From positions 1-34,971 of the forward strand of contig DYOH01000036.1 in the NCBI GenBank assembly GCA_020720625.1: a stretch of 34,971 bases of DNA. Direction: 5' to 3'. The translations under genes and the position numbers were made by a program. Below are positions 7,955-34,095 of the stretch, piece after piece (the first letter of the stretch is position 1; each line of letters starts with the position of its first letter). This DNA comes from Acetofilamentum sp. Its GTDB lineage: Bacteria > Bacteroidota > Bacteroidia > Bacteroidales > DYOH01. The notes under the pieces were generated by a model. It had not been told where the DNA came from, did no database searches, and saw only the letters and a program-made list of their open reading frames with translations.

Positions 7955-9076
7955 ATGAAAATGATGAAAAATTTTACCCTAATTTTTTTCGCAGCTTTTT
8001 TGCTTGCTGCTTGTAATAGCTCGAAAAGCGAAAAAACGCTTATGTTTTCTGTTGAAGGGAACATTGTAGGTAGTACCGATTCGATTGTTTATTTGCGCAA
8101 TTATGTTGATGGAGAATGGATTAGCCTTGATTCAATGAAGCTTGTTGACGGAAATTTTCAGTTTAGCGATACATTTGATACACCCCAAATGCTCTATATC
8201 TCGCTACCAAGTGTAAAACGAAAAAACATCAGCTTTTTCACTGATTCCACAAAAATTGTCATACAGGCAAATGCCGATAGTTTGGATATGGCAAATATAA
8301 GCGGTTCAACTGTTAATAGCGAATTTAAGGTATTTCAAGATAGTATTTCTAAATTTTCGGAGCAGAGCAAAGCTTTGTATCAGGAGTATCTAAAAGCGCA
8401 AGAGGAACAGAATCCGGCCATGATAAAAAAGATAGAAGCTGATTACGAAGCTGTTTACGAAAAACAAGAGGAGTATACCAAAAATTATGTTTGGAAAAAT
8501 AATGCCTCTTTTATAACACCTTATATCCTATACCGCAATTTATCTTATGCCTTGCAATATAATGAGTTAGATTCATTCTTAAGAAATTTCGACCAATCGG
8601 TAAGCAAATCGGTATACTACAAACAATTGCAAGACCGGATTGAAGTTTTAAAGAGTGTGGCAATTGGTGTATTGGCTCCCGAAATTGAGTTGCCCGATAC
8701 CAATGGCGTAAATAGAAAATTGTCGGATTATAGAGGTAAATACGTACTCATCGATTTTTGGGCATCCTGGTGTGGACCATGTCGTAGGGATAATCCCGGT
8801 AATGTAGCATTATACAACGAATATAAGGAAAAGGGTTTCGAAATATTTGGTGTGGCTTTCGATGCAACAAAAGAGGATTGGCAAAAAGCCATTGCAGAGG
8901 ATGGAATCACTTGGCCACAGGTTTCCGATATCAAATACTGGAATTGTGCTGCCGGAAAAACTTATGGCGTTAGGGCAATTCCACATACTGTTTTGCTTGA
9001 TACCAACGGTGTAATTATTGCTAAAGACCTAAGGGGTGAAGAATTACGCGCTAAAGTTGAATCTTTGTTAAAATAG
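7955..9076 (+). CDS. TlpA-like thioredoxin lipoprotein with DUF4369 domain
   Basis: This is an envelope thiol-disulfide oxidoreductase. The lipoprotein signal ends LLAAC (Cys20). Residues 28-120 form the beta-rich DUF4369 domain (FSVEGNIVGSTDSIVYLRN start). A helical, charged linker covers about 125-230. The C-terminal thioredoxin domain, from about 238, opens PEIELPDTNG, has the active site WASWCGPC (Cys273, Cys276) and carries the cis-proline in VRAIPHTVLL. The full length of 373 residues is usual for this Bacteroidota group, which keeps extracytoplasmic or c-type cytochrome cysteines reduced. Starts at 7955, 7961 or 7964 are all possible; the signal is intact with each. It is transcribed alone and converges on recQ across a shared hairpin. 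Confidence 0.9.
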   Translation: MKMMKNFTLIFFAAFLLAACNSSKSEKTLMFSVEGNIVGSTDSIVYLRNYVDGEWISLDSMKLVDGNFQFSDTFDTPQMLYISLPSVKRKNISFFTDSTKIVIQANADSLDMANISGSTVNSEFKVFQDSISKFSEQSKALYQEYLKAQEEQNPAMIKKIEADYEAVYEKQEEYTKNYVWKNNASFITPYILYRNLSYALQYNELDSFLRNFDQSVSKSVYYKQLQDRIEVLKSVAIGVLAPEIELPDTNGVNRKLSDYRGKYVLIDFWASWCGPCRRDNPGNVALYNEYKEKGFEIFGVAFDATKEDWQKAIAEDGITWPQVSDIKYWNCAAGKTYGVRAIPHTVLLDTNGVIIAKDLRGEELRAKVESLLK

Positions 9077-9095
9077 CATTTTTATAGATTTTATT

Positions 9096-9129
9096 GCTTA
9101 TCCGGCCAAACTTATTTTGCCGGATAAGC
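9096..9129. terminator. Bidirectional hairpin between convergent genes
   Basis: An 11-base-pair perfect stem (GCTTATCCGGC 9096-9106 with GCCGGATAAGC 9119-9129) with a 12-base loop lies between the TlpA-like gene and recQ. Neither side has a good T run, so termination may be partly by structure alone. Confidence 0.6.
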
Positions 9130-9166
9130 GCATTTAGCTCATCATTTAACTAGCTAAATTAATTCC

Positions 9167-11053
9167 TCAGTTCAGGGTATATTCATCACCTAGCTTGCTT
9201 ATCAAACCTTTCTCCATGAGTTGTTTAACCAAAAATTGCACATTTTCAAAAGATTTGCCGGTTTTTTCGGTCAATTCCGGCAGGGTAAATTTATGCAAAC
9301 CAGCATTTTTTATCTGATTTAGATATTTTTCAGGTGCATCCTGCTGTGAATTAGCTTTGCATACATCACATTGTCCGCAATCCTGGGCATTGGTTTGTCC
9401 AAAATATTCCATCAGAATGCGAGAGCGACATTTATGAGCAGTTTCGGCATAATAAATCACAGACGATATGAGCTTTTCGTATCTTTCTTTTCTAACTTTA
9501 TAAATTTCGGGCGAAATATAAAGGCTCTCCTTGGGCAATCTCTCCATCAAATATTGAATAAAAGGGTTTTGGCGAAGTGGAATATAATCGAGTATTTGCG
9601 CTTTAGCCAAAGTCTTAAAATATTGATATATTGCATTTCTGTTTGTATTACCAATTTTAGCCAGATAGTTCTCGTCTATACCTGCATACTCGGTAAATAC
9701 TCCGGTGTAATTTCTCAAAATAAGTTTAATAAAACTATCAATTTTGGGATTTGCCACCTGAATTTTGTATAAATCGTCGCGTCCAATGGTAAATTTAATA
9801 AACGATTGAGAAGTTTTTTCCTCAGAATATTCCAGATACTCCCCCATTTTGAGAATTCCTAAGGATGAATTAATCAAATGAATGGGCAATTTATAATTAG
9901 CGGCAAATTCGGCCATCGAGAAATCGAATATTTGCATTTTCCCGCTTCCCAGAGGCAATTGAAAGAAATTTCCGAGCATATTGTAAATATTTTTAATCTC
10001 CTCGATGGGCGGAAAATTCATATCCACCCGTTTTTTAAGATTCGAAATATCAGCATTTTGCACCAGCAGTATGGCCACAGATTTTTTTCCGTCCCGCCCA
10101 CCTCTTCCCGCTTCCTGAAAATAGGCTTCTAAAGAATCCGGTAAATCCATGTGTACAACAAATCTAACATCGGGCTTGTCGATACCCATTCCAAAAGCAT
10201 TTGTTGACACAATAATGCGGTTTCTGTTTTCTTTCCAGTCTTCCTGTTTTTTATCTTTCATTTCGAGCGAAAGTCCGGCATGAAAATAATCGGCCGAAAT
10301 GTTGTTCTCGTTTAGAAATGCGGCAATTTCTCTGGTTCTTTTTCTTATTCTAACGTACACAATGCCTGTACCTTGCACTGCTTTTACAATTTTAAGCAAA
10401 TAATTCAGCTTATCTTCGGTATAACGTACCATGTAGATAAGATTGTTGCGTTCGAAACTCATTTTAAATACATTACGTTCTTTAAAATGAAGTTTGTCCT
10501 GTAAATCTTCCACCACCTGTTGTGTTGCCGTGGCAGTAAGAGCCAGCACCGGCACATCAGGCAATAATGTGCGCATATCGGCAATCTTAAGGTAAGCAGG
10601 CCTAAAATCATATCCCCACTGCGAAATGCAATGAGCTTCGTCGATAGCCAATAGATTAACCTTCATGCGCTGCATTCGCGCTTTAAAAATATCAGTCCCC
10701 AATCTTTCGGGCGAAACATATAAAAATTTATAATCGCCGTAAACACAATTATCAAGTGTAATATCAATCTGGTGTTGTGTCATGCCACTATAAATGGCTG
10801 CGGCCTTAATTTTACGTTTTTTTAGATTATCTACCTGGTCTTTCATCAGGGCAATAAGTGGTGTTACCACTATACAAATCCCCTCCAAAGCAAGCGCCGA
10901 CACCTGAAAAATAACAGATTTTCCGCCTCCGGTAGGAAGTAGCGCAAGTGTATCTTTTCGCTCTTCAACCACCGATTTAATAATATCCAGCTGAATAGAG
11001 CGAAATTCTTTGTAACCCCAGTTATCAAACAAAATTTGTTCAAATCTATTCAT
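9167..11053 (-). CDS. recQ: RecQ-family ATP-dependent DNA helicase
   Basis: This is a 3'-5' superfamily 2 DNA helicase for recombination and fork repair. The order is motif 0 with the Gln in FRSIQLDII (about 17-25), Walker A LPTGGGKS (39-46), and motif II DEAH at 138-141 followed by CISQWGYDFRPAY, the RecQ aromatic-rich loop. Motifs V-VI follow as GMGIDKPDVRFVVHMDLP and QEAGRGGRDG. The zinc-binding domain has CRSRILMEYFG and CGQCDVC near residues 520-550. The last 50 residues form a short winged-helix-like end (FTLPELTEKTGKSFENV) instead of an HRDC domain, so this is the shorter RecQ type common in Bacteroidota, often present beside a full-length paralogue. It is probably transcribed alone. 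Confidence 0.95.
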   Translation of the reverse strand: MNRFEQILFDNWGYKEFRSIQLDIIKSVVEERKDTLALLPTGGGKSVIFQVSALALEGICIVVTPLIALMKDQVDNLKKRKIKAAAIYSGMTQHQIDITLDNCVYGDYKFLYVSPERLGTDIFKARMQRMKVNLLAIDEAHCISQWGYDFRPAYLKIADMRTLLPDVPVLALTATATQQVVEDLQDKLHFKERNVFKMSFERNNLIYMVRYTEDKLNYLLKIVKAVQGTGIVYVRIRKRTREIAAFLNENNISADYFHAGLSLEMKDKKQEDWKENRNRIIVSTNAFGMGIDKPDVRFVVHMDLPDSLEAYFQEAGRGGRDGKKSVAILLVQNADISNLKKRVDMNFPPIEEIKNIYNMLGNFFQLPLGSGKMQIFDFSMAEFAANYKLPIHLINSSLGILKMGEYLEYSEEKTSQSFIKFTIGRDDLYKIQVANPKIDSFIKLILRNYTGVFTEYAGIDENYLAKIGNTNRNAIYQYFKTLAKAQILDYIPLRQNPFIQYLMERLPKESLYISPEIYKVRKERYEKLISSVIYYAETAHKCRSRILMEYFGQTNAQDCGQCDVCKANSQQDAPEKYLNQIKNAGLHKFTLPELTEKTGKSFENVQFLVKQLMEKGLISKLGDEYTLN

Positions 11054-18383: not shown

Positions 18384-19196
18384 CTAAAGCCCCATTACTA
18401 CTCTAAAACCATAATTCCAATTTGATTCACCGGCTTTTGGACTATCGCGGGTGAAAACCCTGCTCATAGAATCGTAGTAATACCAAGATCCGCCCCGCAC
18501 CACTTTAAAAATTCCGGTTGCAGGCCCTATAGGGTTTTTAACCGGACTTTTTGCATAGAAAGTTTGTAAGTAAAAATCGGAACACCATTCCCAGGCGTTT
18601 CCACTCATATCGTGAATACCAAGTTCGTTAGCTCTCTTTGTTCCAACAGGTTTTAGCCCCGCTTCGTTTGTTGTTTCATCGTACCAGGCCACATCTTCAG
18701 GCTTGTTAGAGCCACTATATTCAAAACCTTTACTCTTTTTGCCCCCTCTAGCCGCAAATTCCCATTCGGCTTCGGTAGGTAAGCGGTATTTTCTGCCGGT
18801 ATAATCCGATAGCCACTCACAATAAGCCACGGCATCGTACCAGGTTATATTTACAATAGGCCATTCATCTTGCCAAACCCATTCCTTTACATTGGGATGC
18901 TCGAAGTACCAATTTTCACCAGTTCTTGGATCGGATGTTTTTGGTGGTGGTTTAGGAAAATCTCTTTCTGTTTCTTCGCAAAATTGGCGGTATTGTTTCA
19001 CAGTAATCTCAAATTTTCCGATATAAAAATCGCTTAACTGTACTTTATGCGCCGGTTGTTCGTCCGTTTCTCCATCATTAGTTCCCATCATAAAAGTAGA
19101 GCCTTGCACAGAAATCATGTCAGGCTCTAAAATTTGTGCATTAGCACATGTTAAGTATGAGAAAAATATGAGAAATACTAAAATATGCTTCTTCAT
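18384..19196 (-). CDS. Secreted SUMF1/FGE-sulfatase domain protein (non-catalytic)
   Basis: This exported protein consists of a signal peptide (MKKHILVFLIFF...NAQ) and one formylglycine-generating-enzyme-like domain. The family landmarks are FMMGTNDGETDEQPAHKVQL, FYIGKFEITVKQYRQFCE, NITWYDAVAYCEWLS, YRLPTEAEWEFAARGG, GIHDMSGNAWEWCSD and FKVVRGGSWYYY. At the end, where true enzymes have GFRC with catalytic cysteines, this protein has NYGFRVV and no cysteine. It is therefore not an active FGE, and a structural role as in GldK/GldJ is more likely. I start at the second ATG (19196), which gives a cleaner signal. The paralogue 72 bases upstream is probably co-transcribed. Confidence 0.85.
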   Translation of the reverse strand: MKKHILVFLIFFSYLTCANAQILEPDMISVQGSTFMMGTNDGETDEQPAHKVQLSDFYIGKFEITVKQYRQFCEETERDFPKPPPKTSDPRTGENWYFEHPNVKEWVWQDEWPIVNITWYDAVAYCEWLSDYTGRKYRLPTEAEWEFAARGGKKSKGFEYSGSNKPEDVAWYDETTNEAGLKPVGTKRANELGIHDMSGNAWEWCSDFYLQTFYAKSPVKNPIGPATGIFKVVRGGSWYYYDSMSRVFTRDSPKAGESNWNYGFRVVMGL

Positions 19197-19274
19197 ATAC
19201 ATTTGCTTTATTTATCGAGATTCACCACGCTAACAAAGAATGGTTAAGCTCATCATCTTGATTTGCTTTGCTTC

Positions 19275-20273
19275 TTATTGACTTTTGGCAACTCTAAAAC
19301 CATAATTATAATCGGTATATGTAATTCTAGGGCCATCTCTAACCACCGAACGTGCAACATTCTCCATAAAATACCAGGAGCCTCCGCGTATGCTTTTAAA
19401 TAGCGTTCTTTCAGGTCCCAGAGGGTTTACCGCATTTTTCGAGTTTTTATAATAATTTTTATCGTAAAAATCCCAGCACCATTCCCATGCATTTCCACTC
19501 ATATCGTGAAAACCCAATTCATTTGCGTTTCTAATAGCCACCGGCATTGGCCTTTTTCCTAAAGTAGATTCGTCGGTCCAGGCCACTTCTACAGGATTAT
19601 TACTTCCTGAGAAAGTAAAATTCTGCGATTTATTTCCGCCTCTTGCCGCAAATTCCCACTCGGCCTCTGTGGGTAATCTATATCCTTTTACTTTGGTAAT
19701 ATCGCTTGTTTCTTTTCCGTTTTCGTCGAGTATAACGGCCACTTCTTCAAAAATTCTTTCACCCACTTCCACTTTTTTTAGCAAATAGGCTACCGGTAAA
19801 TTGTTTTTTTCGCTAAGCCAATTGCAGTATAGCACAGCATCTCTCCAGGTAATATTGGTCATGGGGTTTTCGTCTTTCCACACCCATTTGGCTACTTCCG
19901 GATACTCGTCGTACCATGTTTTTTTGCGCAATTGCTTAGTTTTTGGGTCTATAATTTCCATCTCCAAGTCAATATCTTCGGGAGATAGTGGCATAGTAAT
20001 GCCATAAGTATTACTATTAACAAACTCTTTATACTGAGCCACAGTAACTTCAGTTTTTCCAAGGTGAAAACTGCTTACAGTAACTCTATGTAACGGCACT
20101 TCATCATCGAAACCAATATCTGCGCCGCTTTGGGCTTTAACCTCATAGTCTCTACCCATCATATAGTTTCCGCCTTCAACAAAAATAAGATCTGGTTTGG
20201 TTTGCGCTGCAACTGCCGAAACGAAAAAACTGAGTATTGATAGTAATGTAATTTTTAGCACTGAATCTTTCAT
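19275..20273 (-). CDS. Second secreted SUMF1-domain protein (paralogue)
   Basis: The architecture is the same as the neighbour but longer (332 residues). A signal peptide ends at AVAAQ, then come YMMGRDYEVKAQSGADIGFD, FHLGKTEVTVAQYKEFVN, NITWRDAVLYCNWLSEKNN, YRLPTEAEWEFAARGGN, GFHDMSGNAWEWCWD and the end NYGFRVAKSQ. The extra length is an insert of about 40 residues in the middle (KKVEVGERIFEEVAVILDE) ahead of the YRLPTEAEW motif. The C-terminal cysteine site of active enzymes is again missing. It is probably a duplication of the gene downstream followed by divergence. In Bacteroidota, SUMF1-fold proteins act in gliding/type IX machinery, and the neighbouring PorE-like OmpA protein supports an envelope role here (inference). 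Confidence 0.85.
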   Translation of the reverse strand: MKDSVLKITLLSILSFFVSAVAAQTKPDLIFVEGGNYMMGRDYEVKAQSGADIGFDDEVPLHRVTVSSFHLGKTEVTVAQYKEFVNSNTYGITMPLSPEDIDLEMEIIDPKTKQLRKKTWYDEYPEVAKWVWKDENPMTNITWRDAVLYCNWLSEKNNLPVAYLLKKVEVGERIFEEVAVILDENGKETSDITKVKGYRLPTEAEWEFAARGGNKSQNFTFSGSNNPVEVAWTDESTLGKRPMPVAIRNANELGFHDMSGNAWEWCWDFYDKNYYKNSKNAVNPLGPERTLFKSIRGGSWYFMENVARSVVRDGPRITYTDYNYGFRVAKSQ

Positions 20274-20419
20274 GTGTTTTCAAATTTTGCTTTTGTTTGT
20301 ATTTTTTATTCTAAATAAATATCTATTTTTTAATTTAATCTATTTGACCAAAGATAAGTTTTTATATCTTTTTTAGCAAACTTCTGGTTAGATTATTTTT
20401 AGATAGCTCACAATTCGTT

Positions 20420-22306
20420 TTATTCTTTTCGGTATAAAATATCAGTTCTTCTGTTCATAGCCCTGTTTTTTTCTGAATTATTCTCCACCATTGGTTTTTC
20501 TGCTCCGTATCCTCTGTATTGCAATCTTGTGGGCGCAACTCCCGATTTAATAAGCAGTTCGTAAACCGTTTTTGCCCTTTTTCCCGCCAATTCTTTATTG
20601 TATTCTGCATTTCCGGTATTGTCCGTATGACCTTCAATTAATATATTAACGCCGGGATTCAATTTTAAGTATTCGGCCAGATGTTTCACCGTGCTCATGT
20701 CATTTTCTGGCAATTTATCCGAATTATAGGCAAAATTGAAATGAAAACTGGTTTTGCTGCTTTCTTGTATTTTGTTTAGATAAAAGTACTTTTCTTTTAT
20801 ATCAAATGGAAAATCAATCTTTTGACTAAAAAAAGTATAGGTATTTGCATAAATATTTACAGTAATTTCTTTTGTTTCGGCCGAAAGATAATGAAAATGT
20901 CCGGTATTTTTAAAACTCTCTGTCTGAAATATTTCTTTCTCGAAGTTTTCTATCACAATTTGCGCATTTAAAGGCGTTTTGGTTACGGAATCGAGCACAT
21001 AGCCTTTGAATACGTATATGCCATCGGTTTGAATTTCGGGAGCCAACTCAAATTCGTAGATATCCAGATTTTTGTTGGGGCTGAATTTACTTGTTGACAT
21101 ATATCCGCTTTTGCCATTGGGATGCACAAATAGGCTGTTTTCGTCGGCATTGCTATTAACCGGATAACCTATGTTTTGTGCTTTTCCCCACTGTTTTGCC
21201 GAATCAGATTTACTCAGAAAAATATCAAAAGAGCCAAGATTAAGATGCCCCTCAGAACCAAAATATAAGCTTCGGTTGTTTGCATGAATAAAAGGATAGC
21301 TTTCGTTTTCGGGGGTATTGATATTTTCACCTGCATTTTCGGGTATTTGCCATTGTCCTTGTTCGTTTTGCCGGCTAATCCAGATATCTGCTTTTCCAAG
21401 GCCACCTTTGCGGTTGCTCACAAAATACAATGTTTTACCATCGCTAGATATGCTGGGTTGCGATTCCCAATCCTTTGAATTGATGGGTGCACCCATATTT
21501 TTGGGTGCCGACCAATTTAATCCGTCGAACTCGCAAATATAAATATCGCAGCGACCTAGTCCATCGGGACGATTGCATGCCGCAAAAACCAGAAATCTTA
21601 AATCTGCCGATAGATTCGAAGAGCCTTCGTTTCCCTGGCTATTAAATAAAGTCCCGGCTTTTTGAGCCGTTTGCCAATGATTATTCTCCCGGTATGAAAT
21701 AAAAATATCTTCGCTATGATTTGAAGGCGTACTATAGGCACGGGTAAATAAAATCATATTGTTTTGATAATTTATCTGCGCTGCGTACTCATCGAGATTG
21801 CTATTGATGGAATCGCATAATTTAATAGGATTAAAAAGCACCGGATTTTCAGTTATCAACATTATTTCCTGCATCCGCTTTATTTTATCGCTAATTTGGC
21901 GCTTGGTTCCAACATCGGTTACAAAGCTGCTAAATTTATCGTAATCTTGCAAAGCATCTTTATACTTACCATTTTTAAGATAAATATTGCCACGAAACAA
22001 TAACAATTGGGGGTAAACTTCTAATCCACAAGAAATTGCTTTTGAATAATATAGTATGCTTAGGTTTATTTGTTCTTGTTCTTCATAAATTTGAGCCATA
22101 AGAATAAGCGATTCAGTGAACAGGCTGTCTTTTTCTAAAGCCTTAGCTGTAAATTCCCTGGCCGCAGACAAATCAGCTTGTCGATAATATTCCAATGCCT
22201 TAACATGAAATTCGGCGGCCTTTTTAGATTTAGTGCTTAAATCTTGCGCCGATGCCGATAATCCACATATTAAACTGAAACCAATTATGATCAATATTTT
22301 GTTCAT
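20420..22306 (-). CDS. TPR-PD40-carboxypeptidase-regulatory-like-OmpA protein (PorE-like architecture)
   Basis: This is an envelope protein of 628 residues. A signal peptide (to SASAQ) is followed by TPR-type helices (about 22-150, FHVKALEYYRQADLSAAREF). A WD40/PD40 propeller covers about 190-420, with repeats such as GNEGSSNLSADLRFLVFAA, SQPSISSDGKTLYFVSNR and GKSGYMSTSKF. A carboxypeptidase-regulatory-like domain (FKGYVLDSVTKTPLNAQIVI, about 434-500) precedes the OmpA peptidoglycan-binding domain (ILIEGHTDNTGNAEYNKEL, with GKRA). This domain order is that of PorE, a type IX secretion component that ties the complex to peptidoglycan. PorE is a lipoprotein and this protein has no lipobox Cys, so it may be a paralogue. 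The type IX cargo protease at 13340 fits that context. Confidence 0.85.
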   Translation of the reverse strand: MNKILIIIGFSLICGLSASAQDLSTKSKKAAEFHVKALEYYRQADLSAAREFTAKALEKDSLFTESLILMAQIYEEQEQINLSILYYSKAISCGLEVYPQLLLFRGNIYLKNGKYKDALQDYDKFSSFVTDVGTKRQISDKIKRMQEIMLITENPVLFNPIKLCDSINSNLDEYAAQINYQNNMILFTRAYSTPSNHSEDIFISYRENNHWQTAQKAGTLFNSQGNEGSSNLSADLRFLVFAACNRPDGLGRCDIYICEFDGLNWSAPKNMGAPINSKDWESQPSISSDGKTLYFVSNRKGGLGKADIWISRQNEQGQWQIPENAGENINTPENESYPFIHANNRSLYFGSEGHLNLGSFDIFLSKSDSAKQWGKAQNIGYPVNSNADENSLFVHPNGKSGYMSTSKFSPNKNLDIYEFELAPEIQTDGIYVFKGYVLDSVTKTPLNAQIVIENFEKEIFQTESFKNTGHFHYLSAETKEITVNIYANTYTFFSQKIDFPFDIKEKYFYLNKIQESSKTSFHFNFAYNSDKLPENDMSTVKHLAEYLKLNPGVNILIEGHTDNTGNAEYNKELAGKRAKTVYELLIKSGVAPTRLQYRGYGAEKPMVENNSEKNRAMNRRTDILYRKE

Positions 22307-23379: not shown

Positions 23380-23385
23380 TTGAAT

Positions 23386-24564
23386 ATGAAAACAATAACT
23401 AAATTTAAATATTTGCTCCTCGTATTTGTACTGATGGCAAATTTTGCATCCAAAGCCCAAGTGATTGAAGCAACTAGTGCTATTTATTCTTTTAATATTC
23501 AAAAAAAGCAGACCACATTAAGCGATATTAAACCGCCGGTAATTGAAATTTTATATCCGCTTATGGCTTCGGCCAGAGGTTTTAAGCCCGTGGTAGAAGA
23601 GAAATTAATTTCGCTCAAAGGTAGGGCAAGCGACGAGAGTGGAATTTACGAAGTAAAAGTGAACGGTGCTGACGTGCGATTTTTGACAGACGGTACTTTT
23701 ACTCATGAGCTAATGTTGGTAATGGGTGATAATTTAGTGGTGATTGAAGCCATAGACGGAAAAGCCAACAAGCAAACTTTGAATCTTACAATTCAGAGAA
23801 GTTTGTCGGCAGAAGTAGTAGAAGAAACCGAATTAATTGTGCCCGAACTTATTACCACAAAAGGAAAATACTATGCCTTAATTATAGGTGTACAGGACTA
23901 TGTAAGCGAAGATATTACCGATCTGGAAGAACCTATCAGCGATGCACAAAATTTATATAACGTACTTACTCAACAATATACCTTCGACCGAGAAAACGTA
24001 AAGTTTATGAAAAATCCGAGCAGGGAAGATATTATTGTACAGTTGGATTATTATGTAGAGCACCTTTCGGGCGAAGATAATTTGCTTATTTTTTATGCCG
24101 GACATGGTTATTGGGACGAAAAACGCGAAACCGGATATTGGCTGCCGGCCGATGCCCAACGCAAATCTACCGCCCGATGGCTCAGAAATTCGACCATTCA
24201 GGAATATATAGACGATATTAAGGTAAAGCATACCCTTTTAATTGCCGATGCTTGCTTTAGCGGCAGTATATACAAAACCCGAAAAGCTTTCGAAGATGCT
24301 CCGGATGCCGTTAACAAATTATACGATCTTAGCAGTAGAAAAGCAATTACCAGCGGAACACTTACCGAAGTACCCGACAAAAGTGTTTTTATGGAATATT
24401 TTCTCAAAAACTTAAACAACAACACATCTAAGTATGTACCTGCACTTGATATGTTTTCTTCGTTTAGAACTGCTGTGATGAATAATAGCCCAAATACGCC
24501 ACAATACGGTACTATTCAGAATACCGGCGACGAGGGTGGTGATTTTATTTTTATCAGGAGGTAA
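23386..24564 (+). CDS. Secreted caspase-like cysteine protease (peptidase C14 fold) with Ig-like domain
   Basis: This is an exported metacaspase-type protein. I start at the ATG 23386; an upstream TTG adds only two residues. The signal peptide ends at ASKAQ. Residues about 48-138 are a beta-sandwich/Ig-like region (PPVIEILYP ... DNLVVIEAIDGKANKQTLNL). The caspase domain spans about 160-345: KYYALIIGVQDY, the DAQNLYNVLTQQYTF helix, catalytic His240 in IFYAGHGYWD and catalytic Cys290 in LIADACFSGS. Family enzymes cleave after Arg/Lys or Asp. Most bacterial homologues are not tied to cell death, and its place outside the cytoplasm argues for a surface proteolysis role. A weak hairpin terminator follows. 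Confidence 0.9.
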   Translation: MKTITKFKYLLLVFVLMANFASKAQVIEATSAIYSFNIQKKQTTLSDIKPPVIEILYPLMASARGFKPVVEEKLISLKGRASDESGIYEVKVNGADVRFLTDGTFTHELMLVMGDNLVVIEAIDGKANKQTLNLTIQRSLSAEVVEETELIVPELITTKGKYYALIIGVQDYVSEDITDLEEPISDAQNLYNVLTQQYTFDRENVKFMKNPSREDIIVQLDYYVEHLSGEDNLLIFYAGHGYWDEKRETGYWLPADAQRKSTARWLRNSTIQEYIDDIKVKHTLLIADACFSGSIYKTRKAFEDAPDAVNKLYDLSSRKAITSGTLTEVPDKSVFMEYFLKNLNNNTSKYVPALDMFSSFRTAVMNNSPNTPQYGTIQNTGDEGGDFIFIRR

Positions 24565-24810: not shown

Positions 24811-26490
24811 AGATAATCAACCACATAGTGGTAAAATCTTTGTAGAAGATATAATCTGGCGCTAACTCAAAGGTGCGTAGCACCGAAATCTAAAACATTA
24901 TAGCAATTTCGGGGCTGTATAAAAAGTATTTCACCAAACACTTAAATAACTAATAATCAATGCCTTAATTAAATACAATTGATTTGTATATATTACTAAT
25001 ATTTAGGAATATAGCAAATTATCCAACCACTTTTCCTGACTTTGACAATGGGTGTCGCACAAAGTTTTTAATAGCTTTAGAATGCAATAATCGATAAAAA
25101 AATTATTTGATTTTCAATATTATAAAATCTCAAAGGTTTAAGATTGGTTTGAGTGTCGCATTGTAAAAGTCAGGAGATAATCAACCACATAGTGGTAAAA
25201 TCTTTGTAGAAGATATAATCTGGCGCTAACTCAAAGGTGCGTAGCACCGAAATCTAAAACATTATTGCAATTTCGGGGCTGTATAAAAAGTATTTCACTA
25301 AACACTTAAATAACTAACAATCAACGCCTTAATTAAATGCAATTGATTTGTATATATTACTGATATTTAGGAATATAGCAAATTATCCAACCACTTTTCC
25401 TGACTTTGACAATGGGTGTCGCACAAAGTTTTTAATAGCTTTAGAATGCAATAATCGATAAAAAAATTATTTGATTTTCAATATTATAAAATCTCAAAGG
25501 TTTAAGATTGATTTGGGTGTCGCATTGTAAAAGTCAGGAGATAATCAACCACGTAGTGGTGAAATCTTTGTAGAAGCTATAATCTGGCGCTAACTCAAAG
25601 GTGCGTAGCACCGAAATCTAAAACATTATTGCAATTTCGGGGCTGTATAAAAAGTATTTCACTAAACACTTAAATAACTAACAATCAACGCCTTAATTAA
25701 ATGCAATTGATTTGTATATATTACTGATATTTAGGAATATAGCAAATTATCCAACCACTTTTCCTGACTTTGACAATGGGTGTCGCACAAAGTTTTTAAT
25801 AGCTTTAGAATGCAATAATCGATAAAAAAATTATTTGATTTTCAATATTATAAAATCTCAAAGGTTTAAGATTGGTTTGAGTGTCGCATTGTAAAAGTCA
25901 AGAGATAATCAACCACGTAGTGGTGAAATCTTTGTAGAAGCTATAATCTGGCGCTAACTCAAAGGTGCGTAGCACCGAAATCTAAAACATTATTGCAATT
26001 TCGGGGCTGTATAAAAAGTATTTCACTAAACACTTAAATAACTAACAATCAACGCCTTAATTAAATACAATTGATTTATATATATTACTGATATTTAGGC
26101 ATATAGCAAATCATCCAACCACTTTTCCTGACTTTGACAATGGGTGTCGCACAAAGTTTTTAATAGCTTTAGAATGCAATAATCGATAAAAAAATTATTT
26201 GATTTTCAATATTATAAAATCTCAAAGGTTTAAGATTGGTTTGAGTGTCGCATTGTAAAAGTCAAGAGATAATCAACCACGTAGTGGTGAAATCTTTGTA
26301 GAAGCTATAATCTGGCGCTAACTCAAAGGTGCGTAGCACCGAAATCTAAAACATTATTGCAATTTCGGGGCTGTATAAAAAGTATTTCACTAAACACTTA
26401 AATAACTAACAATCAACGCCTTAATTAAATACAATTGATTTATATATATTACTGATATTTAGGCATATAGCAAATCATCCAACCACTTTT
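24811..26490. repeat. Tandem array of 364-base units: four full copies plus a partial fifth
   Basis: Unit starts (GATAATCAACCAC) lie at 24812, 25176, 25540, 25904 and 26268, an exact 364-base period each time. Each full unit is module A (about 223-224 bases, to ...CCAACCACTTTT) plus module B (140 bases). The fifth unit has A only. Units are nearly identical. Shared variants run in order along the array: CACATAGTGGT in units 1-2 but CACGTAGTGGT in 3-5, and TTAGGAATATAG in 1-3 but TTAGGCATATAG in 4-5. This implies stepwise duplication. There is no open frame of useful length in the array. Module A carries two small palindromes, CCACRTAGTGG and GGTGCGTAGCACC. Confidence 0.95.
25035..25174. repeat. 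Module B, first copy: 140-base element with inverted ends
   Basis: It starts CCTGACTTTGACAATG and ends CATTGTAAAAGTCAGG, a 16-base terminal inverted repeat with one mismatch. Further copies are at 25399-25538, 25763-25902 and 26127-26266; the last two end GTCAAG. It has no coding capacity. It looks like a small non-autonomous element captured in, or formed with, the tandem array. Confidence 0.8.
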
Positions 26491-28651: not shown

Positions 28652-29086
28652 ATGGCATACACTTATGATTATCCAAGGCCGGCAGTTACCGTAGATGCAC
28701 TTCTTTTCTTTGAAAACGGGCAAAATTTCGAGCTTTTGCTTATCAAAAGAAAACATGAGCCTTTTAAAAACGCATGGGCAATTCCGGGTGGTTTTGTAGA
28801 TCAAAACGAAACCCTTGATATGGCAGTTCAAAGAGAATTACTCGAAGAAACCGGAGTTTCGGGCATCGACTTATTGCAATTTAAAGCCTATGGCAATCCG
28901 GGCAGAGACCCACGTGGGCACACAGTTTCTATTGTGTTTTATGCCTTTGCATACGAAAAACCAAAAGCCATAGCGGCCGACGATGCTTCCGATACAGCTT
29001 GGTTTTCGGTTGATGATTTGCCACCTATGGCATTCGACCATCAACATATCATTCAAGAAGCAAGGAATCTTATCCTAGCTCCCTGA
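28652..29086 (+). CDS. Nudix hydrolase
   Basis: This 144-residue cytoplasmic hydrolase splits nucleoside-diphosphate-linked compounds. The Nudix box is complete: GFVDQNETLDMAVQRELLEE then TGV, matching G-x5-E-x7-R-E-x-x-E-E-x-G. The family often works on ADP-ribose, dinucleotides or oxidised nucleotides; the PGGF and YGNPGRDPRGHTVSIVFYAF segments resemble the ADP-ribose pyrophosphatase/NrtR-like subgroup. It follows the small membrane protein by 5 bases and its last 17 bases overlap the end of the convergent Crp/Fnr gene, a compact arrangement with no room for a terminator. The exact substrate is not readable. Confidence 0.92.
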   Translation: MAYTYDYPRPAVTVDALLFFENGQNFELLLIKRKHEPFKNAWAIPGGFVDQNETLDMAVQRELLEETGVSGIDLLQFKAYGNPGRDPRGHTVSIVFYAFAYEKPKAIAADDASDTAWFSVDDLPPMAFDHQHIIQEARNLILAP

Positions 29087-29786
29087 TTTTTCTTAATTGT
29101 TCAACATTTTTGATGCTAAATTTTTTACCATCTATTTGAATCAAATCCTCGTCGCGCAATTTTTTCAGCATTCTGATAACGTTTTCGGTAGTCATACCGC
29201 AAAGCTCGGCGAGTTCTTTCCTGGATAGCTCCAAAATAAACTCCTGTTTGCGAAAAATGCGCTCCGAAAGGCAAAGCAAAATATCGGCAAGGCGACCATA
29301 AGACTGCCTTTGTGTGATAGAAAAAAATCTACCATAAGTTTGAATCATGTTGGAATTTAAAATGCCGATAATATCTGATGCAAATTGCGCATTCTGATTG
29401 ATAATCCTTCTAAATACATTGATATCAATCATCTTTATCACAGACGGAATATAAGTAGATATAGAATATACAAAAACATTATTTCCGCTAAAAAGCGAGT
29501 TTAGCCCAGCCAAATTTTCCTCCGGAATAATTTTCAAAATAAGCTGTTCGTGCTTACTTTCCATATATACTTTTAATAATCCTTTGCAAACATAAATAAT
29601 ATGTGTAGCAAAAGTACCTTGTTTACAAACCATTTCGCCTGCTCCAAATTTTACTTCAACTGTGTTTTGGTCAAGTAATATTTGCTCCTCGGGGGTGAGC
29701 GAAAGAAAACAATTACACCGGTTTAATCCAACGGTACAAGTGTTGATTCTTTCAGTTGCTTGATTTTGAGTGCTTGCTAATTTCAT
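29070..29786 (-). CDS. Crp/Fnr-family transcriptional regulator
   Basis: This is a 238-residue regulator starting at ATG 29786 (MKLASTQNQ); a longer frame reaches 29828 but crosses the promoter. The cyclic-nucleotide-binding-fold sensor covers about 25-140, followed by the dimer helix and a C-terminal winged HTH. The recognition helix region is LSRKELAELCGMTTENVIRM: Glu and Arg at the CRP/FNR DNA-contact positions are kept, and the FNR Ser is Ile. Cysteines at 17, 24, 26, 54 and 67 crowd the N-terminal part, so an Fe-S or thiol sensor is possible though the spacing is not that of classical FNR. It is divergent from the rhodanese-porin genes and a TTGAT-type palindrome lies between them. Confidence 0.88.
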   Translation of the reverse strand: MKLASTQNQATERINTCTVGLNRCNCFLSLTPEEQILLDQNTVEVKFGAGEMVCKQGTFATHIIYVCKGLLKVYMESKHEQLILKIIPEENLAGLNSLFSGNNVFVYSISTYIPSVIKMIDINVFRRIINQNAQFASDIIGILNSNMIQTYGRFFSITQRQSYGRLADILLCLSERIFRKQEFILELSRKELAELCGMTTENVIRMLKKLRDEDLIQIDGKKFSIKNVEQLRKIRELG

Positions 29787-29807
29787 TGTTCTTGAGATTG
29801 TTAAATG

Positions 29808-29850
29808 CAAATATAAGCATTCCGTCATAATATGTATTGATATATATCAT
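29808..29850 (-). promoter_or_regulatory. Crp/Fnr gene promoter with an Fnr-type palindrome near -40
   Basis: On the minus strand a perfect -7 box TATATTTG (29815-29808) has no -33 box. In its place lies TTGATATATATCAT (29837-29850), whose inner 12 bases TGATATATATCA are a perfect palindrome and which differs from the Fnr consensus TTGAT-N4-ATCAA at the last base. Its centre is about 40 bases before the expected start of transcription, the position of class II activation. Confidence 0.6.
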
Positions 29851-30010
29851 GTTTTTCGCCATTGTGTATCAGTTTATTACCATACCCTATATCACTGAAT
29901 TTCTCTGGTGTAGTATTTCGATTATGTTCAACTTTGCATTAATCAAAAAAACAAAATCTCAGTGGAGTTTTTGAAAAAAAAACAATGTATCACAAATTAA
30001 ATTTATTCAA

Positions 30011-31000
30011 ATGAAAAAGTTTCTTATTTATTTTGTAGGATTATTTTTAATCACATCCTTTACTTTTGTTAGTTGTAAAGACGAAGAAGTAGTTGAGCCT
30101 GCGTTTGAAACCATGACAAAATATATGGTAGAAAACGATTTAGATTTACCAAGCATTTTAACGTATAACTCCAATGGTACAGCTATTGGTTTTGTAGTTG
30201 GTGCTCCTGCTACTGCCGATTTAGTGCCTGCATTTTTGGCCAAATATTACATCTTGGATATCCGTGCGGCAGCCGATTTTGCCAATGGTCATTTAGATGG
30301 TGCCAAAAATATTGTTTTTGCCGATATTTTAACCGAAGCTGCAAGTGCCGGAGCTAAACCTATTCTTATGGTTTGCTATACCGGACAAACTGCTTGTTAT
30401 GCTACTTCTTTATTACGTTTATACGGATACAGAAATGCACAGGCTTTAAAATGGGGTATGAGTGGTTGGAATGCCGATTTCGACAAATGGACTGCAAGTG
30501 TAGCTAGTATTGCTCAAGGACATGCCAATTGGTCTTTTGACGCTGCTCCTGCAAATGTAAAATACGAAAAACCTGTTATCAACGAAAATTCTACCGATGG
30601 TGCTGCTATTTTAGAAGCGCGCGTAGAAGCTGTTGTTGCTGCCGGTGCCAGAACTGTTGCTGCTCAGGATGTTATTGATAACCCAAACAATTATTTTGTA
30701 AACAATTACTTCTCCGAAGCTGATTTTGGTAACTTTGGACACGTAAAAGGTGCACGCAGAATTAATCCTTTAACCATTGCCGACGATATCATGTATAATA
30801 TCGACCCGGCCGCCAAAGTGGTTACTTATTGCTACACAGGCCAAACTTCGGCCATTATTACTGCTTACTTAAATGTTTTAGGTTACGATGCATATTCTTT
30901 ACTTTTTGGAATGAACAAATTCTTTAATTCTAGTACTGCCTGGACTTCGAACCAGTGGGGCGTTGATTCAAAATCTAAATCATATCCTTACGTTAAGTAA
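30011..31000 (+). CDS. Lipoprotein with two active-type rhodanese domains
   Basis: This extracytoplasmic sulfurtransferase has a lipoprotein signal ending FVSC (Cys22), followed at once by KDEE. Acidic residues there resemble Bacteroidota surface-export signals, so the protein may be on the outer face. Domain 1 (about 70-162) has YILDIRAAADFANGHLDGA and the catalytic loop VCYTGQTA with Cys122. Domain 2 (about 215-312) has the loop YCYTGQTS with Cys274. Both loops keep a nucleophilic Cys and the same CYTGQT sequence, which is unusual since tandem rhodaneses normally keep one active domain. It heads an operon with a porin and another rhodanese. The likely role is transfer of sulfane sulfur from thiosulfate or persulfides (inference). 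Confidence 0.9.
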   Translation: MKKFLIYFVGLFLITSFTFVSCKDEEVVEPAFETMTKYMVENDLDLPSILTYNSNGTAIGFVVGAPATADLVPAFLAKYYILDIRAAADFANGHLDGAKNIVFADILTEAASAGAKPILMVCYTGQTACYATSLLRLYGYRNAQALKWGMSGWNADFDKWTASVASIAQGHANWSFDAAPANVKYEKPVINENSTDGAAILEARVEAVVAAGARTVAAQDVIDNPNNYFVNNYFSEADFGNFGHVKGARRINPLTIADDIMYNIDPAAKVVTYCYTGQTSAIITAYLNVLGYDAYSLLFGMNKFFNSSTAWTSNQWGVDSKSKSYPYVK

Positions 31001-31024
31001 TCAAGATTAGATAAATTTTTAAAA

Positions 31025-31044
31025 GGGGCAGCTTACACTGCCCC
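31025..31044 (+). promoter_or_regulatory. Intercistronic hairpin between the rhodanese and porin genes
   Basis: A 7-base-pair GC-rich stem (GGGGCAG with CTGCCCC) and 6-base loop lie in the 59-base gap. No T run follows. It may protect or process the mRNA and set different levels of the two genes, or partly terminate transcription. Confidence 0.6.
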
Positions 31045-31059
31045 ACAAAAAGTATACTC

Positions 31060-32085
31060 ATGAAAAAAACAATTTTATTATTTGCCATTATTTTTGCGGT
31101 TGGAATTTCTGCCATTAAAGCACAAGGTTGCGGCGACCCCGCCGGCGAAACTTCTTCGGAAGACGGAGCTAAAATCTTCGGATTTTTTCAACCACAATTC
31201 GACTACAATCTTACTGACCCAAATACCAGTACTTTTAAATTCAAACGGGCCAGAATTGGTCTTTCAGGAACTATTCCCTATGATTTCTATTACTATGTGG
31301 TTATGGAAAACAGTGCTTTTGTTAGTCAATCGGGATATCCTTATTTGTTAGATGCTTTTATTTCTTATCGTCGTTTCGAGTGGATGAATATCTCCATGGG
31401 ATCTTTTAAAATGCCTTTTGGCCTCGAAGTGAATACTGCTTGTAATGCGCTTCATACTATAGAAAGAGCTATAGTTTCGGATCAAATTGCCACTCCTCAG
31501 CGAGATATGGGCCTTATGGCAATTGGTAACTTCCTCGATAAAAAAATTAACTATTCTGTGGCGCTAATGAATGGTCGTGGTTTAGGCATCAAAGACAACA
31601 ATCTTAAAAAAGATTTCATTGGTCGTTTAAGAATTTCGCCCATTGAAGCAATTACAGTGGGTGGCAGCTTTAGATTTGGCTATCCGAATACCGACGATGC
31701 TACCAGAATGTCGTATGCTGCCGAAGCACAAGTTAAATTTGGTGAATTCTTGCTCCAAGGTGAATATATTTACGACGAAGGCGACTACAACAGAGGTGCC
31801 GGCGGCGGTTGCGGTTCTGAACCGCTTACTCTAGGCGAAAAACGCAATGGTGCATGGGTGCACGCTATGTATTTGCTGCCCTTTAATTTGCAGCCGGTTG
31901 TGAAATGGGAATTTTTCGATACCGACAATGCCATTGCCGACAACAGCATTTACCGTTATACTTTTGGTGCCAATTATTTTTTCAACGACAATACTCGTCT
32001 ACAATTAAATTATTTATATAATGTTGAAAAAGGTGCCGAAACACCCAACGATGCAGTAATGATGCAATTACAAATCAAATTTTAA
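31060..32085 (+). CDS. OprP/OprO-like outer-membrane porin
   Basis: This is a beta-barrel outer-membrane channel of the phosphate-selective porin O/P family. A signal peptide (ending SAIKAQ) precedes a 319-residue barrel. Typical features are FGFFQPQFDYN, FKFKRARIGLSGTIPYDFYY, LLDAFISYRR, the SFKMPFGLEVNTACN motif and TPQRDMGLMAIGNF. The last strand ends in Phe (MMQLQIKF), the outer-membrane assembly signal. The family forms anion-selective channels; between two sulfurtransferase genes it would be suited to passing sulfur oxyanions (inference). The Cys-containing start of the mature part (GCGDPAGE) and the GGGCG loop are notable extra cysteines. Confidence 0.88.
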   Translation: MKKTILLFAIIFAVGISAIKAQGCGDPAGETSSEDGAKIFGFFQPQFDYNLTDPNTSTFKFKRARIGLSGTIPYDFYYYVVMENSAFVSQSGYPYLLDAFISYRRFEWMNISMGSFKMPFGLEVNTACNALHTIERAIVSDQIATPQRDMGLMAIGNFLDKKINYSVALMNGRGLGIKDNNLKKDFIGRLRISPIEAITVGGSFRFGYPNTDDATRMSYAAEAQVKFGEFLLQGEYIYDEGDYNRGAGGGCGSEPLTLGEKRNGAWVHAMYLLPFNLQPVVKWEFFDTDNAIADNSIYRYTFGANYFFNDNTRLQLNYLYNVEKGAETPNDAVMMQLQIKF

Positions 32086-32111
32086 TAAATTATATAATTT
32101 AGTATTTTATC

Positions 32112-32918
32112 ATGAAAAATATAAAATCAATCATCACTCTTTTTATCCTTGTATTTAGTTTTCAAGGTCTTATTGCTCAGGCAATAATCGATGTAAAAGG
32201 AATGTTGGAGCAAAGCGGAACAATCATTGTTTCTGCTCAAAACGAAGTAGATTACAACAAAGTACATATCAAAGGTGCCATAAACATTGATATACATAAT
32301 TTACAGGCTGATGTGCCATACAAAGGCAAATTAAACACCACTGCTCAAGTTGCCACAACATTGGGAGCCAATGGTATTGCGCAAACAAGCAAAATTATTG
32401 TTTACGACGAAGGCGATATGAAAAATGCCGGTCGTTTATATTGGATTCTTAAATACATGGGTGTAGCCGATGTAAAAGTGCTTGATGGTGGACAAAAAGC
32501 TTATATGGCTGCTCGTAAACCTATTACAAAAACTGCAACTAACTTAGCGGCCACTACCTTTACTGCCAGAGTAAACAATGCTATTTTTGTTGACAAAGCT
32601 TATGTAAAATCTAAAGTTGGCAACAGCAATACCGTACTTTTAGACGTGCGCGCAGCCAGCGAATTTGCCGAAGGTGCTTGCAGTGGTTCTGTTAATATGG
32701 AATACAATCAGGTAATTGGTGCCAATGGTTTAATTAAATCTAAAGAAGAATTATTGGCCTTGTTTAAAGCAAAAGGTATCACTGCCGACAAAGAAATTAT
32801 TGTGTATTGCGCAACCAGCGTTAGAGCGGGCATTGTATATTTGATTTTAAAAGATATTCTTAATTTCTCAAATGTAAAAGTTTTTGAAGGTGCCTACAAC
32901 GAATGGAAGGCAAGTTAA
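32112..32918 (+). CDS. Periplasmic tandem rhodanese (thiosulfate/3-mercaptopyruvate sulfurtransferase type)
   Basis: This secreted sulfurtransferase has a signal peptide ending LIAQ (23). The N-terminal rhodanese domain (about 25-135) has EVDYNKVHIKGAINIDI but YDEGDMKNAG where the catalytic loop should be, so it is inactive. The C-terminal domain (about 155-266) is active: TVLLDVRAASEFAEG and loop VYCATSVRAG with Cys233. One dead and one active domain is the standard SseA/TST layout, in contrast to the two active loops of the lipoprotein two genes upstream. The gene is 26 bases after the porin gene and is followed by a strong terminator that ends the operon. Confidence 0.92.
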   Translation: MKNIKSIITLFILVFSFQGLIAQAIIDVKGMLEQSGTIIVSAQNEVDYNKVHIKGAINIDIHNLQADVPYKGKLNTTAQVATTLGANGIAQTSKIIVYDEGDMKNAGRLYWILKYMGVADVKVLDGGQKAYMAARKPITKTATNLAATTFTARVNNAIFVDKAYVKSKVGNSNTVLLDVRAASEFAEGACSGSVNMEYNQVIGANGLIKSKEELLALFKAKGITADKEIIVYCATSVRAGIVYLILKDILNFSNVKVFEGAYNEWKAS

Positions 32919-32940: not shown

Positions 32941-32978
32941 AAGAGGCGGTGTTGAAATATACTCGCCTCTTTTTTTTT
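32941..32978 (+). terminator. Terminator of the rhodanese-porin operon
   Basis: An 8-base-pair stem (AAGAGGCG 32941-32948 with CGCCTCTT 32964-32971), 15-base loop and a run of T's. The T run touches the stop codon of the convergent glycosyltransferase gene. Confidence 0.85.
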
Positions 32979-34095
32979 AGATTATCGACTCATAAACATT
33001 CATGGTATCTTTGGCCATTGATTTATCCGAAAATTTTTGGGCATGCAAATAGCCTTTCGCAATCATTTCGGAGCTTAATGAGGTATCATTTAATACTTTT
33101 TCGATGGCAAAATGAAGTTCTTCCACATTTCTTGGATTTACCAAAAGCGCAGCATTTCCGCCAGCTTCGGGCAACGACGATACGTTGGATGTTATTACCG
33201 GAGTACCAGAATATAAGGCTTCGAGCACCGGAATGCCAAAACCCTCGTAACTACTTGTATAAACAAAAATTTTGGCCATTTGATAAAATGCCGGCAATTC
33301 CTGATTGGAAATATGTGGTAAATGATAGAACCATTTCTCCAGCTTATTTTCGGTCACAAATTGTAGCACTCTGTGCAGGTATTCCTTGCCGTTTCCGATA
33401 GCCACAATAGGAATACGATTTTCAGGTTGGCACATTGCCATTGCCTTGATAATGTCGATCAGGTTTTTGCGCTCAATAATGGAGCCTACCGAAAGTATAA
33501 ATTCGGAGGGCAACTGATATTTGTGCCTGATATTTGTGAGCGTTTCAGTTGCCAACTTGATAGTAAAGGCCGGATTACAACTCTGGTAAACTACCGAAAT
33601 TTTTTCGTCAGCAATGTGGTATAGTTTAATTAAATCGTTCTTGGTACTCTGGCTAATGGCAATTACCTTATCGGCTGTTTGGCATGCGTAACGATATTTT
33701 AATTTATATAGAAAAGCATCGGTTTTGGGAAAAAGTCCGGGATACAATTCATAAATCAAATCGTGCATAGTTACCACACGCAGGTAATTATTTTTGGCTC
33801 TCTTTAAGGGTAATTCGTGGCTAAGACCATGAAAAATCTGAACTTGTGAATCTTCAATCTGTTTGTTTATGCCACTCTGACGCCAAAAAAAACCGGGTTT
33901 TCGGTCAGGTAAAATAGTTTTAAGCTGCGCAAAGCCTTCGAAACGGTTTTCGGGGCGTGCATAGCGTGGCGAAAACAAAAGGTAGCTATGTTGGGGGTAA
34001 GCTTCTAAAAATCCATAAATTAAGGTGCGACTGTAATTTCCCAAACCAGTCTGATTAAAAAAAAATCGTTTGGCATCAAAACCTATTTTCATCAT
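32977..34095 (-). CDS. Glycosyltransferase family 4 (GT-B) protein
   Basis: This 372-residue cytoplasmic sugar transferase uses nucleotide sugars, probably for surface polysaccharide or lipid-linked sugars. The N-terminal half opens MMKIGFDAKRFFFNQTGLGNY, with the GLGNYSR acceptor-side motif. The C-terminal donor half has FILSVGSIIERKNLIDIIKA, AKIFVYTSSYEGFGIPVLEA (the E-x7-E motif) and YSGTPVITSNVSSLPEAGG. This is the classic GT4 layout of the mannosyltransferase/WbaZ-like subgroup. The start may be either of two adjacent ATGs. It stands alone: no other polysaccharide genes are near, a divergent tRNA lies upstream and a convergent terminator downstream. Confidence 0.92.
   Translation of the reverse strand: MMKIGFDAKRFFFNQTGLGNYSRTLIYGFLEAYPQHSYLLFSPRYARPENRFEGFAQLKTILPDRKPGFFWRQSGINKQIEDSQVQIFHGLSHELPLKRAKNNYLRVVTMHDLIYELYPGLFPKTDAFLYKLKYRYACQTADKVIAISQSTKNDLIKLYHIADEKISVVYQSCNPAFTIKLATETLTNIRHKYQLPSEFILSVGSIIERKNLIDIIKAMAMCQPENRIPIVAIGNGKEYLHRVLQFVTENKLEKWFYHLPHISNQELPAFYQMAKIFVYTSSYEGFGIPVLEALYSGTPVITSNVSSLPEAGGNAALLVNPRNVEELHFAIEKVLNDTSLSSEMIAKGYLHAQKFSDKSMAKDTMNVYESII

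Follow-up and report, generated by a model that had tools for sequence, protein, structure and literature searches.

The window analysed here, a stretch of 34,971 nucleotides from Acetofilamentum sp. (Bacteroidales; assembly GCA_020720625.1, contig DYOH01000036.1), carries an operon that encodes two exported rhodaneses and a porin. Its first gene (30011..31000, plus strand) specifies RHD1, a two-domain rhodanese lipoprotein that matches PF00581 in two stretches and has the lipobox cysteine C22. This gene is followed on the same strand by one for an outer-membrane porin of the OprP/ExtI-like type (31060..32085; PF07396, E 1.5e-21) and by the gene for RHD2, an exported tandem rhodanese (SseA/MST-like; 32112..32918), which has a signal peptide and also matches PF00581 in two stretches. 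The operon ends in an intrinsic terminator at about 32942..32979 of the plus strand, where the RNA fold GAGGCG...CGCCTC, followed by a T9 tail, reaches -20.2 kcal/mol against a mean of -8.8 for shuffled sequences (z -4.99). On the minus strand, divergent from the operon, lies a gene for a regulator of the Crp/Fnr family (29070..29786; PF00027 and PF13545), which shares 17 bases with the end of a NUDIX gene. The open reading frame (ORF) of the regulator reaches 29828; judging from the length of its orthologues, translation probably begins at the ATG in position 29786 and gives a protein of 238 amino acids. The promoter region common to regulator and operon contains a candidate FNR-type box, TTGATATATATCAT (29837..29850, no strand assigned), with one mismatch to TTGATN4ATCAA. 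The divergent Crp/Fnr gene, the three genes of the operon and the closing terminator had all been recognized in the initial annotation of this DNA; the genes were found where they had been placed, and the terminator was confirmed.

The grouping of these genes is strongly conserved and recurs in many anaerobic Bacteroidota. In a first sample of 60 genomes, made up of the genome of the window and 59 relatives mostly from the same order, ten had a strong match to the porin (E < 1e-50), and the gene order around these porins was unchanged in genomes from many families. A scan across GTDB with one genome per species and an alignment of nine porin sequences as the query yielded 246 relatives, the best 80 of which were taken. 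These 80 come mostly from Bacteroidales, including isolates of Carboxylicivirga, Labilibacter, Marinifilum, Ancylomarina, Draconibacterium and Maribellus; they also include metagenome-assembled genomes labelled Cloacimonadota, Neomarinimicrobiota, KSB1 and Chlorobi(ota), and since several loci are from such assemblies, the phylum labels beyond Bacteroidota are possibly binning errors. The RHD1 gene stands immediately 5' of the porin gene in all 76 loci with sufficient flank and the RHD2 gene immediately 3' of it in all 75, so that a chance grouping of the three is excluded, and the first divergent gene encodes a Crp/Fnr protein in 59 of the 60 loci where the contig extends far enough. Pairwise distances of RHD1, porin and RHD2 are correlated (r = 0.80, 0.67 and 0.64, with a permutation maximum of 0.12). 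A gene order confined to close relatives, which the initial annotation had named as the outcome that would tell against it, was tested for, and the order proved to be kept beyond them. The system is patchy rather than general, because in a phylum sample of 395 genomes only two besides the genome of the window had a strong porin match (E < 1e-100). In one relative (L042 of genome G002, 8931-9817) the porin gene is split into two ORFs by a TAG codon and is either a pseudogene or the result of a sequencing error.

The catalytic cysteine of active sulfurtransferases is present in both domains of RHD1 (loops CYTGQTA with Cys122 and CYTGQTS with Cys274; both cysteines 81/81) and in domain 2 of RHD2 (Cys233 in CATSVRA; 83/83). 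Domain 1 of RHD2 has Asp99, and this position is mostly Asp in the relatives as well. There are thus four rhodanese domains, three of them with an active-site cysteine, as had been noted from the sequence. RHD2 matches the 3-mercaptopyruvate sulfurtransferase 1urh with an E-value of 5.8e-23. The lipobox cysteine of RHD1 is found in 80 of 81 cases, and in the window it is followed by KDEE, which corresponds to the K-(D/E)2-type surface-export signal of Bacteroidota. With simple patterns as tests for lipobox and export signal, the latter was detected in its loose form in 67 and in its strict form in 43 of 80 RHD1 relatives, as opposed to 4 and 2 of 78 control lipoproteins from the same loci. Lipoproteins with the Bacteroidota export signal have been shown by experiment to be sent to the cell surface (PMC5080379). 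RHD1 is accordingly predicted to reside on the cell surface and RHD2, which has a signal peptide and no lipobox, in the periplasm, a distinction that refines the earlier statement that all these domains lie outside the cytoplasm.

Many relatives encode additional partner rhodaneses, 59 of 76 of which end in GGC or GGCG(G), a C-terminus found in none of 702 unlabelled ORFs. The GGCGG motif of SoxY has an established carrier function, its cysteine binding sulfur substrates (PMC6067878). RHD1 has no such tail, and its paralogues in the same genome have the GGC tail and no export signal; among the GGC rhodanese lipoproteins, the export signal occurs in 0 of 67. From these sorting signals, the two kinds of rhodanese look like they divide the work, with capture at the surface by RHD1 and carriage in the periplasm by the tailed proteins. 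Three relatives have a further GGCGG rhodanese behind RHD2 (L045, 8630-9139; L044, 7845-8387; L040, 9133-9654). The second GGCGG rhodanese of L040 has an apparent Ser in place of the active-site cysteine (IYSQSVNRA) and may therefore be a carrier only.

The AlphaFold2 model of the porin (pLDDT 86.5, pTM 0.82) has 16 strands, and the best match in the PDB, both by sequence and by fold, is OprP (2o4v). Three cysteines, C24 (QGC), C128 and C251 (GGGCG), are invariant (85/85), whereas among 44 distant relatives of the Porin_O_P family 37 have either no cysteine (30) or a single one (7). C24 is located in the N-terminal tail behind the signal peptide; by strand order, C128 belongs to the constriction loop L3 and C251 to loop L6, loop names being assigned by analogy with OmpF and OprP. 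In the alignment with OprP, C128 falls on a Ser within TSSKW of loop L3 and R63 on the RR pair, OprP residues that belong to the anion site.

Among the 60 loci that span 12 kb or more and were scored for labelled sulfur-metabolism genes, 52 have such genes near the operon, and three architectures recur. In the most frequent one (A, 34 loci), a divergent regulator is followed by genes for an octahaem cytochrome, a cytochrome b, a GGC rhodanese, RHD1, porin and RHD2. The octahaem protein belongs to the octaheme tetrathionate reductase (OTR) family (TIGR04315, 583 bits with a cut-off of 375), and all eight haem motifs are present in 34 of 35 such neighbours. The second architecture (B, about ten loci, complete or partial) runs from YedE through a GGC rhodanese, RHD1, porin, RHD2 and another GGC rhodanese to DsrE, MvhD, QmoA, QmoB and QmoC. 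In the third (C, 12-13 loci), RHD1, porin and RHD2 precede a molybdoenzyme with A, B and NrfD-type C subunits, often together with a split YeeE and more rhodaneses. Neighbours identified by model matches further include PhsA-like proteins, NrfD (Psr-type) subunits, Sulf_transp (PF04143), DsrE, FlpD, HdrA-like proteins and QmoC, while one class-level relative (L184) has SQR-like, DsrC and DsrE genes near the operon.

In the 60-genome sample, a Psr/Phs-type reductase is encoded in 9 of the 10 genomes with the porin and in 12 of the 50 without it (Fisher p = 1.6e-4); for OTR alone the association was non-significant (4/10 and 8/50, p = 0.10). The genome of the window itself has, on another contig (L036, C65:40001-60000), a compact locus with OTR, a Psr/Phs-type reductase, a split YeeE, a cytochrome b fused to PAS domains and four rhodaneses, all of which have the GGC end and two of which are the RHD1 paralogues mentioned above. 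This OTR is probably an inner-membrane-anchored protein, given its hydrophobic C-terminal stretch and the cytochrome b gene that follows it. Together, the count of 52 in 60 long loci and the co-occurrence with Psr/Phs-type reductases lend good support to the handling of a sulfur anion that had been suggested for the operon.

The FNR-type box is likewise a recurrent feature. Perfect TTGATN4ATCAA sequences occur in 20 of 64 orthologous intergenic regions, with 0.15 expected from dinucleotide shuffles, and sequences with at most one mismatch in 37 of 64, with about 4 expected. In the regulators, C31 is present in 65/65 and C186 in 64/65, C40, C68 and the S170 column being only partially conserved; the canonical four-cysteine signature of FNR (three clustered N-terminally and one in the sensor domain) is not conserved among these 65 proteins. 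Other Crp/Fnr paralogues in the same genome have C31 as well, but lack C186. Oxygen, redox state or persulfide are possible signals for such a protein. The oxygen-limited control proposed earlier is plausible in view of the strong enrichment of the box upstream of the operon, although the cysteine pattern is not that of canonical FNR. The genome of the window contains 23 perfect boxes, compared with 7 hits of a reversed pattern used as control; none of the 23 is on the contig of the window or on the one with OTR and Psr, so we make no claim of a regulon for this genome.

We consider it probable, if by no means certain, that the operon represents the outer-membrane module of a respiration of sulfur intermediates, which captures sulfane sulfur and relays it across the outer membrane. 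RHD1 on the surface would take sulfane sulfur from external polysulfide, thiosulfate, tetrathionate or sulfur, and the porin would serve as a channel for the sulfur anion, with C24, C128 and C251 perhaps holding or relaying sulfur or acting as a gate. RHD2 and, in most relatives, the lipoprotein rhodanese with the GGC(GG) tail would accept the sulfur in the periplasm, from where the carriers could pass it to a quinol-linked reductase, either the octaheme cytochrome with cytochrome b or a Psr/Phs-type enzyme with an NrfD anchor. Alternatively, sulfur might be delivered through YeeE/YedE to cytoplasmic DsrE and Qmo/Hdr-like proteins. The divergent Crp/Fnr regulator would switch the operon on from the FNR-type box, probably when oxygen is absent. 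What we infer is the substrate, the direction of flow, the chemistry of the relay, whether the porin cysteines bear sulfur, and what the regulator senses. A stricter version, in which the porin is itself a reactive conduit whose three cysteines carry sulfane sulfur and hand it over from the surface rhodanese to the GGC-tailed periplasmic rhodaneses, we put forward tentatively and regard as rather unlikely.

Several observations weigh against this interpretation. In the window, neither a reductase gene nor one for a GGC rhodanese adjoins the operon, and its link to a reductase is genome-wide only; 8 of the 60 long loci have no labelled sulfur neighbour. The locus counts, including 76/76 and 75/75, come from mutually related loci selected for the similarity of their porins, and hence are not independent. 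The cysteines of the porin might form a structural disulfide. In the class-level relatives L183 (genome G193) and L184 (G355), RHD1 and porin genes are present with no RHD2 gene 3' of the porin and with an additional RHD1-like gene upstream, so that RHD1 and porin may be the minimal core of the system. The evidence is computational throughout, covering the identity and order of the genes, the invariant cysteines, the signals for sorting, the context of sulfur genes and the FNR-type box, and no experimental result on any member came to light. Finally, the contexts with Qmo, DsrE and YedE, as well as that with SQR and DsrC in L184, would fit oxidation equally well.

This last point leads to a reading that we hold to be less probable, yet worth serious attention: the same route could serve the oxidation or disproportionation of sulfide, thiosulfate or sulfur, with YedE and DsrE feeding Qmo/Hdr-like complexes that run oxidatively. 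YedE, GGCGG rhodaneses, DsrE, MvhD and QmoABC are clustered in L040, L045, L099 and L123, SQR-like, DsrC and DsrE genes lie by the operon of L184, and YedE-TusA-DsrE clusters are tied to disproportionation in other phyla (PMC12998232). However, the most frequent contexts are OTR with cytochrome b and NrfD-type reductases, which are usually reductive, and thiosulfate-reductase genes are on record for Marinifilaceae (PMC9765461). AprAB, Sat and DsrAB were not noticed beside the operon, in a survey that made no search aimed at them. Reductive use is thus favoured by architectures A and C, whereas architecture B and L184 would allow oxidation or disproportionation.

That the operon is a Bacteroidota ExtHI, which would bring in selenite or tellurite to be reduced as has been proposed in Geobacter, appears improbable. 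The porin matches the ExtI model (E 1.9e-20) and RHD2 the ExtH model (E 1.1e-15), and an extI mutant is impaired in the reduction of both compounds (PMC5877670), but the two matches are far under the curated cut-offs (73 of 150 and 58 of 200 bits), ExtKL-S are absent and the conserved neighbours are sulfur enzymes; selenite may also pass through a sulfur-anion porin as a secondary substrate. Rhodaneses are capable of detoxifying reactive sulfur, persulfide and cyanide. Detoxification of these compounds at the surface with no tie to respiration would suit the isolated operon of the window, but the operon is strongly linked to genes for quinol-linked reductases and for sulfur transporters, which leaves this reading only a slim chance, and no labelled persulfide dioxygenase or cyanide gene was seen near the operon, although no search was aimed at either. 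The cyanide detoxification suggested in the initial annotation found no support and was dropped for want of gene context. Least likely of all, to the point of being hard to credit, is an electron conduit of the porin-cytochrome type with RHD1 as its outer partner: extHIJKL of Geobacter was examined as a putative conduit (PMC6148476) and architecture A includes an octahaem cytochrome, but the Psr/Phs and Qmo architectures have no labelled cytochrome and the OTR of this genome is probably held in the inner membrane.

For the little-understood passage of polysulfide, elemental sulfur or tetrathionate across the outer membrane to bacterial reductases, an outer-membrane module of sulfur-intermediate respiration would supply concrete parts: a lipoprotein at the surface, a pore with cysteines, carriers with GGC tails, and a regulator together with its box. 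Were the reactive conduit to prove true, insoluble or extracellular sulfur could be respired over the outer membrane with no cytochromes, by a trans-envelope persulfide relay of which we found no description. Cultured marine Bacteroidota possess the module, which makes it open to deletion tests, and the operon should be a strong genomic marker of sulfur-intermediate respiration in Bacteroidota and related phyla.

Elsewhere in the window, a tandem array at 24811-26490 (364-bp unit, 4.6 copies, 98% identity) lies between a gene for a caspase-domain protein and a FUR-family gene and contains zero ORFs of at least 120 amino acids. At 23380-24564, the caspase-domain (Peptidase_C14) protein is encoded immediately behind a Fib_succ_major-domain protein, and a pair of neighbouring FGE-sulfatase (SUMF1-like) proteins lies beside an OmpA/PD40 protein (18384-22306). 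A phage or mobile origin was considered and rejected, there being no match to PHROGs.

Of the described systems, the nearest is ExtH-ExtI of Geobacter sulfurreducens (GSU2940-2939), a rhodanese lipoprotein and a porin (PMC5877670, PMC6148476), to which the Bacteroidota locus is related without being ExtHI itself. In a literature search on rhodanese lipoproteins, surface rhodaneses, porins with rhodaneses in Bacteroidales and OTR with rhodaneses, from which subscription papers were mostly absent, this was the sole related system, and no sulfur-respiration route across the outer membrane was found described for Bacteroidota. The initial annotation knew of no described system of this composition; that holds in part only, since ExtH and ExtI are a described relative. 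In both systems, the gene for a rhodanese-family lipoprotein directly precedes that for a Porin_O_P-like porin (the ExtI model matched here, below its cut-off, is NF040900), with a divergent regulator upstream. In contrast to Geobacter, the Bacteroidota locus has a tandem rhodanese behind the porin, a Crp/Fnr regulator instead of a LysR or TetR one, and sulfur reductases and transporters as neighbours instead of the ExtJ-S cytochromes; no genes for multihaem ExtKL, ExtM, ExtN or ExtS were found in the window or in the sulfur locus of the same genome, and the octahaem OTR of the relatives belongs to another family.

Like OprP and OprO, the phosphate and diphosphate porins of Pseudomonas aeruginosa (2o4v, 4rjw), the porin is a 16-stranded barrel of the Porin_O_P family with K62/R63 aligned to the RR pair, but it is shorter, has about 16% identity over the fold and carries the invariant Cys128 where L3 of OprP has Ser. 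The phosphate-starvation context of those porins (Pho regulon, PstS) was not encountered, the neighbours in the relatives' loci being sulfur genes and Crp/Fnr. The locus resembles SoxYZ in two motifs, GGC(GG) at the C-terminus of the partner rhodaneses and GGGCG in a loop of the porin; the partner rhodaneses have neither the SoxY nor the SoxZ fold, the motif being added to rhodanese domains. The YTD cluster (YedE-TusA-DsrE), reported as complete only in Desulfobacterota and Nitrospirota (PMC12998232), has a transporter of the YedE type and proteins like DsrE in common with architecture B; neither TusA nor the cluster's conserved hypothetical proteins were seen here, and YTD has no porin or surface rhodanese. 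The Bacteroidota module also suggests that the ExtHI pair of Geobacter is perhaps one instance of a broader route for chalcogen anions.

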